Below, piece after piece: positions 20,428 through 27,678 of a stretch of DNA of 41,710 nt. Made by a program: the position numbers and the translations under genes. Within the stretch, counting starts at the first letter, position 1. The number at the start of each line of letters is the position of its first letter. The notes beneath the pieces are model-generated. The model was not told where the DNA came from. It saw nothing but the letters and a program-made list of their open reading frames with translations, and ran no database searches. The DNA is from Pseudomonadota bacterium (GTDB lineage: Bacteria; Pseudomonadota; Gammaproteobacteria; Xanthomonadales; Rhodanobacteraceae), in the NCBI GenBank assembly GCA_021818335.1, contig JAKAEJ010000012.1, positions 1 through 41,710 on the forward strand. The letters are read 5' to 3'.

Positions 20428-20760
20428 TCAACCGCGGTCGTCGCGGGTGTAGATGACGCCGTCAACCTCACGCACGGGAAAGGTGGCCGTCGGCACATAG
20501 GCCGGTGCGCACAAGGCTGCTCCCGTCCGCAGGTCGAACCGTGCCCCATGGCGAGCACACTCCAGCTCGTAGCCATGCCGTTCGCCACCAGCCAGCTCGC
20601 CATCGTCATGGGTACAACGATCCTCGATGGCATAGAGATCGCCGTCGATGTTGTACACGGCGATGGGCGTATCGCCATCCCAGACGACCTTGAACTCGCC
20701 GGGCAGGAGGTCTCCAAGGGCAGCCACGCGCACCCAGCCGATCGGCGGAGTCTCGTTCAT
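20428..20760 (-). CDS. Rieske-type [2Fe-2S] ferredoxin
   Basis: 110 residues. It is one Rieske domain with the ligand boxes CTHDDGEL (C-x-H) and CARHGARFDL (C-x-x-H), giving two Cys and two His for a [2Fe-2S] cluster. It resembles the small ferredoxin subunits of non-heme oxygenases and the NirD-like group, and has no signal peptide, so it is a cytosolic electron carrier. It is the last gene of the SUF operon and overlaps the GNAT stop (ATGA). A cluster protein made from the same mRNA as its assembly machine might be a dedicated electron donor or a client; this is inferred. Confidence 0.88.
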   Translation of the reverse strand: MNETPPIGWVRVAALGDLLPGEFKVVWDGDTPIAVYNIDGDLYAIEDRCTHDDGELAGGERHGYELECARHGARFDLRTGAALCAPAYVPTATFPVREVDGVIYTRDDRG

Positions 20761-21296
20761 CGACCAAGATCCTTGAGCAGGAGTTCGAACCGCAGGTCAC
20801 CGCGCTTCGGCAACCCGAAGCGCGAATCCCCGTAGGGGAAAGCCTTGCGCTCGCCGGTCCGGAGATAGCCGCGGCGCTCGTACCAGGCAATCAGCTCGGC
20901 ACGGATATCGATGACCGTCATCGTCATGCACGTGCAGCCCCATGCATCACGGGCCATGCGCTCGGCTTCCGCCAGGAGCGACCGCCCCAGGCCCTGTGCC
21001 TGCATGGCAGGGCGGACGGCGAACATGCCGAAATACGCGACCCCAGGGCGTTCGCGCGCCACATGGCAGCAGGCAACGGGCGCCTCGTCGCCTGGCGCGA
21101 TTGCCAGCAACACGACCGAGTCCGGCGCGAGGATGAGCGCCTTCACCGACGCGGGGTCGGTGCGCTGCCCGTCGAGCAGATCCGCCTCTGTGGTCCAGCC
21201 GGCTCGACTGGCCTCGCCACGGTAGGCACTCTCGACCAGTGAAACCACCGCTTCCGCGTCATCCACGACGGCGGCACGGAAGCGTAGCGCGGTCAT
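20757..21296 (-). CDS. GNAT acetyltransferase in the SUF operon
   Basis: 179 residues. It starts MTALRFRAAVVDDAEAVVSLV, a typical GNAT strand and helix. The acetyl-CoA loop is FAVRPAMQAQGLGRSLL (Q-x-x-G-x-G), followed by LIAWYERRGYLRTGE, the usual W-Y-x-R-x-G-[FY] segment. The ATG shares one base with the sufU stop (TGATG), and the stop overlaps the Rieske ATG. The conserved coupling places it in the iron-sulfur operon, but the substrate is unknown. A direct role in cluster assembly is not established. Confidence 0.85.
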   Translation of the reverse strand: MTALRFRAAVVDDAEAVVSLVESAYRGEASRAGWTTEADLLDGQRTDPASVKALILAPDSVVLLAIAPGDEAPVACCHVARERPGVAYFGMFAVRPAMQAQGLGRSLLAEAERMARDAWGCTCMTMTVIDIRAELIAWYERRGYLRTGERKAFPYGDSRFGLPKRGDLRFELLLKDLGR

Positions 21297-21754
21297 CACG
21301 GTTCCCGGCCGTCGATGGACGGCACGCCATCCAGTGCCTTGAGTGCCGTCGTCAGCGGCAGCCGGGCGCAAGGGCGTCGGGATGGATGCTTCGCAAGATC
21401 CGCGAAAGCGGCAAGGGGCCCCAGGGCATCCGAGGACTCATCGCGGCCCTCGAGCACGGCGTCGAACGCGCGGAGGAGGCGCGCCACCTCGTCGCGGCAG
21501 CGACCCTGCAGCCGGTCGCCCAGCATCGATGCCGCCGCCAGGGTGATCGCACAGGCATCCGCGTCGAAGGCATACCCGGTGATTCGCCCATCGCGGAGCG
21601 CCAGCATGATGCGGATGTGATCGCCACACAGCGCGTCGTGGCCATCGGCCGCAGCATCGACGGCTGGAAGCGGTGTTTGGTAGGCCGGAGCACGCGCATG
21701 CTCGAGCACGAGGGCATCGTAAGGTCCAGCCGTCAGCCCGCCTGTTCCGTTCAT
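21296..21754 (-). CDS. sufU: SufU-type iron-sulfur assembly protein
   Basis: 152 residues of the IscU/SufU fold. The ligands Cys43, Asp45 (ALCGDHI), Cys68 (DACAITLAAASM) and Cys129 (RPCARLPL) match the C-D-C-C set that binds zinc in Bacillus SufU. There it accepts persulfide sulfur from SufS. It would serve as the sulfur acceptor for the SufS next to it, in place of the SufE used by E. coli. The ATG overlaps the sufS stop by 4 nt. Confidence 0.9.
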   Translation of the reverse strand: MNGTGGLTAGPYDALVLEHARAPAYQTPLPAVDAAADGHDALCGDHIRIMLALRDGRITGYAFDADACAITLAAASMLGDRLQGRCRDEVARLLRAFDAVLEGRDESSDALGPLAAFADLAKHPSRRPCARLPLTTALKALDGVPSIDGREP

Positions 21755-22998
21755 GCCAGCAGGGCGCGTGCCTTGAGCAGCGCGGCCACTAGCAGGTCGG
21801 CCTCTTGCTCGGTGTTGTAGAACGCAAACGAGGCCCTGCACGTCGCTGGCACGCCGAAATGCCGCATTAGCGGATGCGCACAGTGGTGCCCGGAACGAAC
21901 CGCTATCCCTTCCAGATCAAGCAGGGTCGCGAGGTCATGCGCGTGCGCACCCTCGACCAGGAAGGAAATCACCGCGGCCTTGCGGGGCGCTTCGCCGATG
22001 ATGCGCAGGCCCGGTACCTCGTGAAGACGGGCAGTCGCATACTGAAGAAGGCCATGCTCGCGCTCGGCAATGTGCGCCATGCCCACCGACTCCAGGAATC
22101 GAACCGCTTCGGCCAGGCCCACGAATCCCGCGATGTTCGGCGTGCCCGCCTCGAACCGAGCCGGCGGGTCGGCAAACGTGGAGTCCTCGATGCGCACCTC
22201 GCGGATCATCTCGCCGCCGCCGAAGAAGGGAACCATCGACTGCAGGATCTCGCGCCGTGCCCAGAGTCCACCGGTTCCGGTGGGTCCGCACATCTTGTGC
22301 CCGGTGAACGCATAAAAGTCGCAGCCGATCGCGCGCACGTCCACGGGCAGGTGAGGCACGGCCTGCGACCCATCCACCAGCAGCGGAATGCCGCGGCTTC
22401 GGCATGCCGAAGCGAGCTCGGCCACCGGATTGATGGTCCCCAGCACATTGGAAACATGCGTCACGCAGGCCAGCTTGACCCGTGGGTCCAGCAGGGCGAT
22501 GAATCCCTCGACATCCAATTCGCCATTGGACCGAATGGGTGCGGCGACGACATGCGCTCCCGTGCGCTGGCAGACCAGTTGCCAGGGCACGATGTTCGCG
22601 TGGTGCTCCATCGTCGTCGTGAGTACCACATCACCCGGCTGTAGCCGCGGCAGCAAGTAGCTGTAGGCCACCATGTTGGTCGCCATGGTCGTGCCGCTCG
22701 TGAGAACCAGCTCCTGCGGTGACCCGGCGTTGATGAAGCGCGCCAGCGCACTGCGAGCCCCTTCATAGAGGTTCGTGGCTTCCTCGCTGAGGGCGTGCAC
22801 GGCCCGCGCGACGTTGGCGTTGCGCTCCCGGTAGAAGCGATCCACGGCCTCGATGACGCCCAGCGGCTTCTGCGAGGTGTTCGCGTTGTCCAGGTACACG
22901 AGCGGCTTGCCGCCGTGAACGGTTCGCGCCAGCAAGGGGAACTGGGCGCGAATCCCGGCGAAGTCGGCCGCCAAGCGCGGGGTTGCCACGACGTTCAT
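21751..22998 (-). CDS. sufS: Cysteine desulfurase SufS
   Basis: 415 residues, a PLP enzyme that takes sulfur from cysteine as a persulfide for cluster building. It is a class V aminotransferase fold, group II. PLP Schiff-base Lys235 is in FTGHKMCGPTGTGG, EHHANIVPWQ binds the cofactor, and LVDGSQAV includes the Asp that pairs with the pyridine ring. Catalytic Cys373 sits in the RSGHHCAHP loop. The usual DGAQA is DGSQA here, a mild change. The start was chosen by overlap with the sufD stop (ATGA). Confidence 0.97.
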   Translation of the reverse strand: MNVVATPRLAADFAGIRAQFPLLARTVHGGKPLVYLDNANTSQKPLGVIEAVDRFYRERNANVARAVHALSEEATNLYEGARSALARFINAGSPQELVLTSGTTMATNMVAYSYLLPRLQPGDVVLTTTMEHHANIVPWQLVCQRTGAHVVAAPIRSNGELDVEGFIALLDPRVKLACVTHVSNVLGTINPVAELASACRSRGIPLLVDGSQAVPHLPVDVRAIGCDFYAFTGHKMCGPTGTGGLWARREILQSMVPFFGGGEMIREVRIEDSTFADPPARFEAGTPNIAGFVGLAEAVRFLESVGMAHIAEREHGLLQYATARLHEVPGLRIIGEAPRKAAVISFLVEGAHAHDLATLLDLEGIAVRSGHHCAHPLMRHFGVPATCRASFAFYNTEQEADLLVAALLKARALLA

Positions 22999-24296
22999 GC
23001 CGGTTGACCGCCCGATGGCCAGTCCGCCACGACCGCGTCCAGTGCGGCCTCCGCATCCGCGCGCAGCACCGGATGGACGATGTCCTCGAGCAGCGCCCGG
23101 CAATGCGCGGCGACAAGCATCGCGCGCGCCTGCGATTGGGATAGGCCGCGCGAACGGAGATAGAACATCATCCCCGGGTCGATCTGTCCGACGCTCGCGC
23201 CGTGCGCGGCGCGAATCTCGTCGGCATGGATTTCCATCGTTGGACGCACGTCGATTTCAGCGGACTCGGACAACAGGAGGTTGCGCGTGTCGAGGCTTGC
23301 ATCACTACGATCAGCACCCGCTTCAATCGTGATTGCGCCATGCAGAACGGCCCTGGCGCGCGCGGAAGCGACGGCCCGGCAACGCAGTTCACTTCGCGTC
23401 CCGCCGACGGCATGCCGCAAATCGAGTGCCAACTCCGAGTGCTGGCGCCCGTCGGTCAGCGCTACCTGCCGCACCTCGGCGCAGGCATCTTCGCCATCCA
23501 GGCGGATCGACAGGTCCCGGCGAGACAATGCCGCACCGAGCTCCAAGGCATGCAGCCGCAGCGTGCTGCGGGCTGCCAGCCTGAATTCGTCACGCCGCAG
23601 CAAGCTCAGCGAGGCTCCGGCTTGTTGCTGCTGCACTACGTGCAGCATGGCCCCCTCCTCCAGGATCCAGCGGGTGGATACCGTGGCCAGCCCGGAACCA
23701 CCACCGACATGCCGTTCGCGCAGGGTGACGCTGGCCCCCGCGCCCATGCGCACGAGGCAACGAACGTGCGTCGCGATCGGTGTCGCGGCGTTGCCGACGT
23801 GGATGATTTCCAATGGCGCGTCGAGAACGCTTCCCGCGGACACATCCAGCACGAACCCACCCCGCGCCTGGGCCAGGTTCAGCGCGTCGAGTTCGTCCTC
23901 GGTGTCCGCCAGCTGCAGCAGCTGGGCATAGCGCGCCCACTGCCCATCATCGAGATCCGCCAGCGACAGTCCGACGGCGCCCGGAGGGAGCGCCCGAAGA
24001 TCGGACATCGATGGCGCGAAATAGCCGTCCGCAAAGACCAGACGCGGCCCCGCCACTCGGGGGACGCCCATGGGCTCAACCGCCGAGACAGGCGCCTCGC
24101 CCGCCGACAGGGACTGCGCCTCGAGCGCACGCACGGGCATGTACCGCCAACGCTCGCTGTGCGCGTGCGCCAGTCCACCACGGAGTTGCAGGCGCGCACG
24201 CGCCTGGGATCGGGCCGCTTGGACTTCCGCGTTGCCCGCGCCGGGCAGCGCCGACCCATCCTCGCGCAATGCGGCGGCCAGCAGGGCGCTGCCCAT
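22995..24296 (-). CDS. sufD: SufD, subunit of the SufBCD scaffold
   Basis: 433 residues. SufD pairs with SufB as the beta-helical part of the SufBC2D complex that builds clusters and takes up iron. The N-terminal half is variable. The core shows beta-helix repeats from about residue 170 and ends with the family block MEIHADEIRAAHGASVGQIDPGMMFYLRSRGL (read in parts), with the conserved H-G-x-[ST]-V-G-x-I-D histidine used in E. coli SufD. Its ATG shares one base with the sufC stop. Confidence 0.96.
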   Translation of the reverse strand: MGSALLAAALREDGSALPGAGNAEVQAARSQARARLQLRGGLAHAHSERWRYMPVRALEAQSLSAGEAPVSAVEPMGVPRVAGPRLVFADGYFAPSMSDLRALPPGAVGLSLADLDDGQWARYAQLLQLADTEDELDALNLAQARGGFVLDVSAGSVLDAPLEIIHVGNAATPIATHVRCLVRMGAGASVTLRERHVGGGSGLATVSTRWILEEGAMLHVVQQQQAGASLSLLRRDEFRLAARSTLRLHALELGAALSRRDLSIRLDGEDACAEVRQVALTDGRQHSELALDLRHAVGGTRSELRCRAVASARARAVLHGAITIEAGADRSDASLDTRNLLLSESAEIDVRPTMEIHADEIRAAHGASVGQIDPGMMFYLRSRGLSQSQARAMLVAAHCRALLEDIVHPVLRADAEAALDAVVADWPSGGQPA

Positions 24297-25045
24297 CAGG
24301 CAGCCTCCTGCGGAAGGCCGGCGTAACCCTCGGCCTCCAGCTTGCGCGCCAGTTCAGGTCCGCCGCTGGCGGCAATCCGACCGTTGGCGAGGACGTGCAC
24401 GACATCAGGCCGGATATGCTCCAGCAGCCGCTGGTAGTGCGTAATGACGATGAACGAACGGCCGGGAGCGCGTTGCGCATTGACGCCGGCAGCTACCTGG
24501 CGCAATGCATCGATGTCCAGACCCGAGTCGGTCTCGTCAAGGATGGCGAGCTTCGGCTCCAGGAGCGCCATCTGGAAGATTTCGTTGCGCTTCTTTTCGC
24601 CACCGGAGAAGCCCTCGTTGACGCCCCGGTGCAGCAGCGCGTCCGGAAGATCGAGGATCTTCAGCTTCTCGCGCACCAGCTTGAGGAACTGCACCGAGTC
24701 CAGCTCCGGCTCGCCGCGCGCGAGCCGTTGCGCGTTGAGCGCGGCCCGCAGGAAGTAAGTGTTGTTGACGCCGGGAATTTCCACCGGATACTGGAACGCG
24801 AGGAATACACCGGCCGCCGCACGCGCCTCGGGCTCCATGGCCAGCAGGTCCGTCCCTTCGAAGCGCACCGAACCGCCGGTGACTTCGTAGCCATCGCGCC
24901 CGGCCAGCACGTTGCCCAGCGTGGATTTTCCCGCGCCGTTGGGACCCATGATGGCGTGGACCTCGCCGGCGTTCACCTGCAACGACAATCCTTGGAGGAT
25001 GTCCTTGCCGCCCACGCGTACACAAAGGTTCTCAATGGTCAGCAT
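24296..25045 (-). CDS. sufC: SufC ATPase
   Basis: 249 residues, a cytosolic ABC-type ATPase that drives conformational change in SufBCD. Walker A GPNGAGKST is at residues 34-42, with the Q-loop in FLAFQYPVEIPGV. The signature is FSGGEKKRNEI with Phe in place of the usual Leu. Walker B and D-loop follow in LAILDETDSGLDIDAL, and the H-loop in FIVITHYQRLL. Seventeen nt separate it from the methyltransferase gene upstream, the widest gap in the operon. Confidence 0.97.
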   Translation of the reverse strand: MLTIENLCVRVGGKDILQGLSLQVNAGEVHAIMGPNGAGKSTLGNVLAGRDGYEVTGGSVRFEGTDLLAMEPEARAAAGVFLAFQYPVEIPGVNNTYFLRAALNAQRLARGEPELDSVQFLKLVREKLKILDLPDALLHRGVNEGFSGGEKKRNEIFQMALLEPKLAILDETDSGLDIDALRQVAAGVNAQRAPGRSFIVITHYQRLLEHIRPDVVHVLANGRIAASGGPELARKLEAEGYAGLPQEAA

Positions 25046-25062: not shown

Positions 25063-25716
25063 TCATGGATGGCGCTGTAGCGCCACGTAGGTGAATGGCT
25101 GCGTTGCGCCGGATGGGGTGGTGTGCAATTCGCGTCCTTCGGCAACGCGCATGAACGAGTCCCCGAATTCCGCCGCCAGACCCGTTGCGTCGTAACGCTG
25201 GACCGGGAGGTTGCTGCAACGCTCGGGTCCATCCAGTGCGAACGTGGCGATGACGGCATAGCCACCGGGCGCAATGGCCGACGCCATCTGTTCGGCGTAG
25301 CGCGCCCTCGCCCGAGGCTCGGCCATGAAATGGAAGACGGCACGGTCGTGCCAGAGGAGGAACCGGGACGCGGGCAAATCCAGGCGCGTCACGTCTCCGC
25401 ACCACCACCGCACGGCGGCGGCCTTCGACCCGATGCGAGCGCGGCTTTCGGCCATCGCTTCGTCCGCGAGGTCGAGCACCGTCAAATCCGTGAACCCCCT
25501 GGCCTGCAGGTCATCCACGAGTGTCGACCGGCCGCCACCGACATCGATCACCGGCGCGGACAACGGCAGGCCCAGGGCGTCGATCAGTCGCAAGGACTCA
25601 TCCAGATGCTCGCGGAACCAGCTTGTTTCCACCTGCGCCTTCCGCTGATAGACCGAGCGCCAATGGGCTTGCAGTGGCAAAGCCGCGCCCGGCGCAGCGG
25701 ATGGCTGCGTGCTCAT
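25063..25716 (-). CDS. Class I SAM-dependent methyltransferase inserted between sufB and sufC
   Basis: 217 residues. The SAM site is [17 protein letters not shown] (motif I, G-G-G), followed by an acidic [11 protein letters not shown] (motif II) and [13 protein letters not shown] (motif III). [12 protein letters not shown] and [14 protein letters not shown] continue the Rossmann fold. The opening [20 protein letters not shown] is typical of a bacterial methyltransferase group of unknown substrate. The ATG overlaps the sufB stop by 4 nt, so it is translated with the SUF genes. Codon use looks like its neighbours, so it is not an obvious recent arrival. A role in cluster metabolism is possible but unproven. 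Confidence 0.85.
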
Positions 25717-27176
25717 CCGACGGCTCCCTCGAGGGAAACATCGAGCAGCTTCTTGGCCTCGACGGCAAATTCCATGGGAAGCTCGCGAAACACGCTTCGG
25801 CAGAAGCCGTCCACGATCATCGACACCGCGTCCTCTTCGGCGATGCCGCGACTACGGCAGTAGAAAAGCTGGTCGTCGGAGATCTTCGAGGTCGTGGCTT
25901 CGTGCTCCACGATGGCGCCGGGGTTCCGGACCTCGATGACCGGGAAGGTGTGCGCGCCGCATCGCTTGCCAATGAGCAACGAATCGCACTGGGTATGGTT
26001 GCGCGCCCCCGTAGCGGTGCGTTCGACGCGGACCAGTCCGCGGTAGCTGTTCTGACCTTTGCCGGCACTGATCCCCTTCGAAATGATCTTGCTCCGCGTA
26101 TTGCGGCCGATGTGGATCATCTTGGTGCCGGTGTCGGCTTGTTGGCAATGATGGGTCAGCGCGACGGAGTGGAACTCGCCGACGGAATCGTCGCCCCGCA
26201 AGATGCAAGACGGATATTTCCACGTGATGGCCGAGCCGGTCTCGACTTGGGTCCAGCTGATCCGGCTGCGCGCACCCCGGCATTCGCCGCGCTTGGTCAC
26301 GAAATTATAGATACCGCCGACGCCATTCTCGTCGCCTGGGTACCAGTTCTGGACCGTGCTGTACTTGATGCTGGCGTCGTCCAGGGCCACCAGCTCCACC
26401 ACCGCGGCGTGCAACTGATTCTCGTCCCGCATCGGCGCGGTACAACCCTCGAGATAGGACACCGAGGCACCCTCCTCGCAGATGATGAGCGTGCGCTCGA
26501 ACTGGCCGGTGTTCAGGGCGTTGATTCGGAAATAGGTGCTCAATTCCATGGGGCAACGCACGCCCCGTGGCACAAACACGAAGCTGCCGTCGGAGAAAAC
26601 GGCCGAATTCAGCGCCGCGAAGAAGTTGTCGCTGGTCGGCACGACGCTTCCGAGGTACTGGCGCACCAAGTCCGGATGCTCGCGCAAGGCCTCGCTCATC
26701 GAACAGAAGATGACGCCGGCCCGCTTGAGGTCCTCTCGGAACGTCGTGCCCACCGAAACGGAGTCGAACACGGCGTCGACGGCAACCCCGGCAAGGCGGG
26801 CCCGTTCATGCAGCGGCACGCCAAGCTTGTCGTAGGTCTCCAGGAGCTTGGGATCGACCTCATCAAGCGACTTGGGACGCTTCTTGGGTGCAGCGAAGTA
26901 GCTGATCGCCTGGAAATCAATCGGAGCGATCCGCAACTTGGCCCATTGCGGCATGGGCATGGTCTGCCAACGTCGGAATGCAGCCAGCCGCCACTCGGTC
27001 ATCCACGGCGGTTCCTGCTTGCGCGCGGAGATTGCGCGGACGACGCCTTCGTCGAGCCCCGGCGGCAGGCTCTCCGTCTCGATGTCGGTGACGAAGCCGG
27101 CGGCATAGCGGCGACCGAGCGCTTCGCTGACGGCGACCGGTGCGACCGGCGCAGCGGGTTCGATGCTGTCGGACAT
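25713..27176 (-). CDS. sufB: SufB, subunit of the SufBCD scaffold
   Basis: 487 residues, the cluster-bearing subunit of SufBC2D. The conserved core is plain: [49 protein letters not shown], and the C-terminal beta-helix with [20 protein letters not shown] (read in parts). The Cys in THTQC-like NHTQCDS corresponds to E. coli Cys405, the sulfur acceptor. The tail [14 protein letters not shown] fits the family. It starts 2 nt after the sufR stop, so regulator and scaffold are read together. Confidence 0.97.
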
Positions 27177-27178
27177 GA

Positions 27179-27625
27179 TCAGGCGACCTCCACCTGGATG
27201 GCGACCCGGCGCTCCGGCGACGCGGGCAATGGCCGGGCCAGATCCGCGAGGCTCATGCGCGCCAGTGTCTGCGCGACCACGGCGCTGATGCGTTGCCAAG
27301 GCGCGCTGACACCGCAGTGCGTCGAGTGCGCGCAGGCATCGCCGGCTGCGCAGTCGGTGATGCCAAACGGTCCCTCGAGCGCCTCGACCAGCTCGGCCAG
27401 GTTGATGTGCTCCGCCGGACGAGCCAGACGGTAGCCGCCGCTGGCGCCGCGGAACGACTCGACCATGCCGGCACGCACCAGCGAGCGCAGCACCTTGGCC
27501 ACGGTCGGCGCCTCGAGGTGCAGCACCGTCGCGAGTTCTGCGGCGCTCACGATGCGGTGGGGATGTTCAGCCATCCAGCCGAGGGCGGCGGTTGCATAAT
27601 CGGTGAGGCGGCTCAGACGCAACAC
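27179..27625 (-). CDS. sufR: Rrf2-family SUF operon regulator
   Basis: 148 residues. The GTG start (27623-27625) has GGAG 7 nt upstream and gives [19 protein letters not shown], the normal Rrf2 N-terminus. The winged helix spans residues about 1-65 ([10 protein letters not shown] closes the wing). Cys92, Cys98 and Cys104 ([14 protein letters not shown]) have the same spacing and the same numbers as the [2Fe-2S] ligands of IscR. It resembles the gammaproteobacterial SUF-system regulators. As first gene of the operon, behind a palindromic site that covers the -10, it probably represses its own operon when holo-protein is plentiful. Confidence 0.92.
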
Positions 27626-27636
27626 GGGGTATCTCC

Positions 27637-27678
27637 AATCAAGACCAAAATGGTACTGATTAGATGCTTCTGATGCAA
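27637..27678 (-). promoter_or_regulatory. SUF operon promoter with overlapping 25-bp inverted repeat
   Basis: On the minus strand, -35 TTGCAT (27673-27678) and -10 TACCAT (27650-27655) are 17 nt apart. An inverted repeat covers 27637-27661. The half sites AATCAGTACCA and TGGTCTTGATT match at 9 of 11 positions around a 3-nt centre. The repeat includes the whole -10 and probably the start site, a good position for a repressor. SufR, encoded 12 nt downstream, is the natural candidate; binding is inferred. Confidence 0.7.

Follow-up and report, generated by a model that had tools for sequence, protein, structure and literature searches.

In a 41,710-nt stretch of contig JAKAEJ010000012.1 (the window) from a Pseudomonadota bacterium of the Rhodanobacteraceae, we found a 25-bp dyad over the promoter of a nine-gene SUF operon. 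Sequence comparison suggests that this dyad is the operator through which SufR, encoded by the first gene, represses its own operon: occupancy would block RNA polymerase, and the repressor is probably loaded with an iron-sulfur cluster. We assign this reading a probability of about 0.88. As in an Rrf2-type autorepression operator, the dyad overlaps the promoter of the regulator's own operon and is conserved with the regulator; the arms in the window fall short of perfect pairing (9 of 11 positions), and the -35 hexamer is a weak match.

The dyad and the SUF operon

We read the dyad as AATCAGTACCA-TTT-TGGTCTTGATT from 27661 to 27637 on the minus strand: the left arm spans 27661-27651, the TTT centre 27650-27648 and the right arm 27647-27637. 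This direct reading bore out the first-pass annotation in its inverted repeat (9 of 11 arm matches about a 3-nt centre) and in its minus-strand promoter, TTGCAT and TACCAT separated by a 17-nt spacer with the -10 inside the dyad. The gap from the repeat to the sufR GTG (27625-27623) had been given as 12 nt and counts 11 nt. A simple sigma-70 scan of the window did not call a promoter at the dyad, because both hexamers are weak (3/6 and 4/6 matches by our own count). The elements are as follows.

27673-27678, minus: -35 hexamer TTGCAT (direct reading; spacing conserved, see below)
27650-27655, minus: -10 hexamer TACCAT, within the left arm and centre of the dyad (conserved among same-type sites, see below)
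27637-27661, minus: putative operator, 25-bp dyad AATCAGTACCATTTTGGTCTTGATT, core GTAC-N7-GTCT (class-wide conservation before sufR, arm covariation, top-ranked site of the window)
27633-27636, minus: GGAG ribosome-binding site, directly 3' of the dyad and abutting it (sequence reading)
27179-27625, minus: sufR (gene 1), Rrf2-family regulator, TIGR02944 suf_reg_Xantho (131 bits, cut-off 110.65), with Cys92/98/104 and Asp9
25713-27176, minus: sufB (gene 2), NF008773 (899 bits, above cut-off), starting 2 nt past the sufR stop
25063-25716, minus: class I methyltransferase-like gene (gene 3), overlapping the sufB end; lineage-specific insertion
24296-25045, minus: sufC (gene 4), TIGR01978 above cut-off
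22995-24296, minus: sufD (gene 5), TIGR01981 (207 bits, slightly below the cut-off of 222)
21751-22999, minus: sufS (gene 6), TIGR01979 above cut-off
21296-21754, minus: sufU-like scaffold gene (gene 7), TIGR01994 (79.6 bits, below the cut-off of 92.5), Pfam NifU_N
20757-21296, minus: GNAT acetyltransferase gene (gene 8)
20428-20760, minus: Rieske-type ferredoxin gene (gene 9), last before the convergent hutD

From sufR to the Rieske gene, all junctions are overlaps or gaps of at most 17 nt. It is thus likely that one promoter serves nine genes, and the operon of nine genes proposed earlier is supported by these overlapping or near-touching reading frames. We found no terminator between the upstream cytochrome c gene and the SUF operon, into which transcription from that gene could read through. 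The GNAT acetyltransferase and Rieske-type ferredoxin genes (20428-21296, minus strand), whose start and stop codons overlap, close the operon. The methyltransferase-like gene between sufB and sufC occurs in this species and in the near-identical locus L033, and was not found in any other Lysobacterales locus extending to sufC, L034 and L035 of the same genus among them; it was probably inserted recently, the operon being conserved in other respects.

Conservation with sufR and link to the regulator

Of 370 genomes sampled from the class (Gammaproteobacteria), 106 have a TIGR02944 regulator above cut-off; we collected most of the corresponding loci and compared 160 distinct ones. In 155 of these, a dyad with the core G[GT]AC-N7-GT[AC]C lies no more than 150 nt upstream of sufR; the core has no mismatch in 118, one in 34 and two in 3 (the three two-mismatch loci were accepted by eye, and L005 has a nearer site than the one picked by the script). 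Perfect cores were found in 0.19% of shuffled upstream regions and in 1 of 160 coding stretches. The same block precedes sufR in named genomes of Lysobacter, Luteimonas, Thermomonas, Arenimonas and Pseudoxanthomonas. The sites typically resemble AAWCNGTACMATTYYGGTMCNGATT within the order and AATAGGACTAAAATAGTCCTATT outside it. The first-pass annotation had held that a repeat missing from relatives of equal gene order would speak against its proposal; we found the dyad conserved with sufR-sufB across Gammaproteobacteria. Our search of viral contigs returned no relative.

One of the five loci that lack the dyad lies at the edge of a contig, and in two others, the sole such cases, sufB does not follow downstream. 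The remaining loci, L059 and L154, are sufR-sufB loci with a regulator above cut-off and no recognisable dyad within 150 nt upstream; they have either an altered motif or a different promoter. Two tandem dyad copies precede sufR in L078, and two similar blocks are found in L083, so that some relatives may have a double operator.

A genome has about one such site, located before sufR-sufB. Of 41 relatives, 38 had a match to the core pattern, in most cases a single one lying upstream of sufR, and matches elsewhere in the 41 were about as frequent as those of reversed-pattern controls. All 152 dyad-bearing loci with enough sequence have sufB next to sufR. In the host genome the dyad appears to be the only such site, although a second could be missing from an assembly that is 77% complete. 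A larger regulon was considered and rejected: the only other one-mismatch match in the host genome (contig C34, 587-607) has poor AT flanks, and one-mismatch matches stay at control level both in relatives and in genomes that lack the regulator, as the order-specific pattern with one mismatch did in 20 such genomes.

These distributions bear on the question of which protein uses the dyad. The suf promoter of E. coli is controlled by regulators encoded elsewhere, and several relatives carry further, weaker Rrf2 matches, so that the dyad might be used by another Rrf2 protein, or by Fur, OxyR or NsrR, and not by SufR. We consider this very unlikely. The class-type pattern was found in exactly one place, at the sufR coordinates, in 19 of 20 class genomes with a TIGR02944 regulator and in 0 of 20 class genomes without one above cut-off. 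The site adjoins sufR, and no relative has a canonical IscR above cut-off (TIGR02010, 0 of 41). Furthermore, sufB follows the regulator in 155 of 157 loci, and both exceptions, family members located away from sufB, lack the dyad.

Position of the dyad relative to the promoter

We grouped the sites by their bases within the dyad. In 64 sites (T at position 7, A or C at 10, T at 12), positions 7-12 read TACAAT or TACCAT in 58 cases, and a TTG lies exactly 17 nt upstream of this hexamer in 47, against a background of 2%. Another 70 sites have T at position 10; here TAAAAT, TAGAAT, TATATT or TATAAT is frequent at positions 10-15, and a TTG at 17 nt is likewise enriched (19 of 69; background 2%). 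The -10 element thus lies within the dyad in both forms, shifted by 3 bp between them. The conserved 17-nt spacing supports the -35 and -10 called in the first pass and would place the start site near dyad position 19 (about 27643), within the right arm. Polymerase occlusion is the natural reading of a -10 element inside the dyad.

As a rule, activators bind upstream of the -35 element, whereas the dyad covers the -10 hexamer and the probable start site, an arrangement that suits occlusion. It therefore seems very unlikely that SufR acts from the dyad as an activator, in general or as apoprotein, even though apo-IscR activates suf in E. coli (PMC5411485; PMC9973013).

A leader RNA hairpin, acting as an attenuator or in translation control, is suggested by arms that pair and lie close to the ribosome-binding site. 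It would require transcription of both arms; with the predicted start site inside the right arm, the left arm stays untranscribed and a hairpin is unlikely. The fixed 17-nt spacing to the -35 TTG is a constraint at the DNA level, and the distance from dyad to start codon varies between 10 and 60 nt, which together make this explanation highly improbable.

Symmetry, covariation and chance

Symmetry by itself was dropped as evidence. Repeats of the 11+3+11 shape with at least 9 of 11 pairs occur 17 times in about 41,700 window positions, all 17 being equal to the dyad or better, and about 0.1 would be expected in the 259-nt gap. We accept the dyad as real because of its conservation. Position weights for a scan of the window were learned twice, once without the genus of the host and once without most of its order. 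With the motif from other genera of the order, the dyad was the best of about 83,000 window positions on both strands (32.9 bits), the next unrelated place scoring -5.6 bits, about 38 bits lower. With the motif learned only outside the order, it again ranked first at 25.7 bits, and the next unrelated place scored -3.6 (about 29 below). The core motif was refined after the class data had been seen, a bias of which these leave-out scans are free.

We analyzed arm covariation in one locus per 70%-identity cluster (n = 90). Positions 7 and 19 are G-C in 31 clusters and T-A in 30, and are complementary in 61 of 90 against 42 expected, a value reached in none of 2000 shuffles; the shuffle ignores deeper kinship, so this figure is indicative. 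Positions 8-9 and 17-18 are practically invariant. Arm symmetry thus appears to be maintained by selection, which fits a symmetric dimer. Although some 0.1 repeats could arise in the gap by accident, class-wide conservation and arm covariation make a chance repeat in an AT-rich promoter hardly tenable.

The SufR protein

SufR scores 114.5 bits against Pfam PF02082 (Rrf2) and 64.6 bits against canonical IscR (TIGR02010), below the cut-off of 207.55. Neither canonical IscR nor IscU was found above cut-off among the relatives, and SUF therefore seems to be the sole Fe-S system of the lineage. The three cluster cysteines are retained in 154 of 155 homologues, the wing Arg59 in 150 of 155, and position 9 is Asp in 152 and Glu in 3. 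Position 107 is Ser in SufR and His in none of the 155 relatives, and the position of IscR Glu43 is Ala in SufR and Glu in none. E. coli IscR has both Glu43 and His107, and all 155 TIGR02944 relatives lack both. The recognition helix reads Pro-Thr-Val-Ser/Ala-Lys, where IscR has Ser40-Tyr-Leu-Glu43-Gln44. As the IscR specificity residues Ser40, Glu43 and Gln44 are not conserved, the mode of recognition is not transferable from IscR. When we compared base 7 (G or T) with single recognition-helix residues, no alignment column stood out.

In a profile comparison with solved structures, Asp9 falls on residue 8 of S. coelicolor NsrR, as judged by matched ranges. In that protein, a [4Fe-4S] cluster takes its fourth ligand, Asp8, from the partner subunit (PMC5411485), and we predict an NsrR-like cluster in SufR. 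Ala44 and Lys45 of NsrR likewise match Ala43 and Lys44 of SufR; NsrR differs from SufR in being a nitric oxide sensor with a different operator and not a SUF regulator. Glu43 is known to hold apo-IscR off type 1 sites (PMC5411485, PMC3899308); as it is missing here, holo/apo discrimination by SufR may or may not follow that of IscR. We lean, if narrowly, towards the view that the TIGR02944 regulators are a branch of SUF autorepressors of their own, spread across the class: each genome would have one operator (G[GT]AC-N7-GT[AC]C) in either of two positions relative to the -10, read by the Pro-Thr-Val-Ser/Ala-Lys helix, and the cluster would be NsrR-like (three Cys and the partner-subunit Asp9, likely [4Fe-4S]) and not the [2Fe-2S] cluster of IscR with its His107.

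Comparison with known systems

We compared the dyad to the type 1 IscR consensus ATASYYGACTRWWWYAGTCRRSTAT (PMC3899308). The window dyad matches the E. coli consensus at 14 of 25 positions, a value reached by 1.1% of window positions; the E. coli iscR sites match at 24 and 22, and the whole dyad set averages 15.3, the sites of class relatives being somewhat more type-1-like than that of the window. The earlier view that the motif is unlike IscR types 1 and 2 holds for the low number of type 1 matches and for the differing flanking bases, and fails for the geometry and the AC-N7-GT core, which are the same. We therefore read the dyad as a lineage variant of a class-wide motif and not as an unrelated one. 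SufR and E. coli IscR with its type 1 sites share the Rrf2 family, the place as first gene of the operon, a 25-bp dyad with an AC-N7-GT core, promoter overlap and three Cys ligands. They differ at dyad positions 6/20 (mostly G/C here, Y/R there) and in reach, as E. coli IscR controls more than 40 genes and SufR apparently has one target per genome.

Xanthomonas campestris belongs to the order of our host. Its IscR and the corresponding binding site were reportedly described by Fuangthong et al. 2015 (Microbiol Res 170:139). According to two further sources, SUF is the only Fe-S system of this species, and the characterized type 1 sites include that of its IscR (PMC6599224, PMC8593673). By this description, that site is likely the same operator in a relative. 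In Pseudomonas aeruginosa, promoter-overlapping IscR sites have been reported to mediate repression (PMC3899308). Myxococcus RisR represses suf and footprints at GAC-N7-GTC over its -10 (PMC9973013). In spacing and half-site, the M. xanthus RisR palindrome, TGGAC-N7-GTCC, equals the class-form dyad, and RisR is an Rrf2 Fe-S repressor over the suf -10; it belongs to Rrf2 group IS6, distant from IscR, and controls isc as well as suf. The cyanobacterial and actinobacterial SufR is an autoregulated suf repressor but belongs to the DeoR family and binds CAAC-N6-GTTG, so that only the name is common; direct reading did not find this sequence in the 25-bp dyad.

In the open literature on TIGR02944 or a Xanthomonas Rrf2 operator we found no description of the dyad, and none of a motif shared across the class, of its occurrence about once per genome, of the two -10 positions or of the predicted cluster ligands. 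The SUF dyad is a well-supported case of a known kind of feedback control, not a new kind of system.

A model for SUF autoregulation

In our model, a SufR dimer, probably carrying an iron-sulfur cluster, would cover about -18 to +6 of the SUF promoter, hide the -10 hexamer and exclude RNA polymerase. When clusters become scarce, under low iron or oxidative stress, SufR would lose its cluster and leave the dyad, and the SUF operon, including sufR, would be on until clusters are replenished. We infer all three central elements of this model: SufR as the binder, binding as repressive, and the cluster-loaded form as the repressor. The loop would provide dedicated local feedback in a lineage without canonical IscR or IscU.

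The dyad offers a testable operator for what is apparently the only Fe-S assembly operon of the lineage, and from the rule G[GT]AC-N7-GT[AC]C before sufR-sufB one can predict SUF control in those class genomes that carry the regulator (106 of the 370 sampled). Our analysis further suggests that a regulator possibly named IscR in these bacteria binds its cluster in a manner unlike E. coli IscR, which would affect the signals that it senses.
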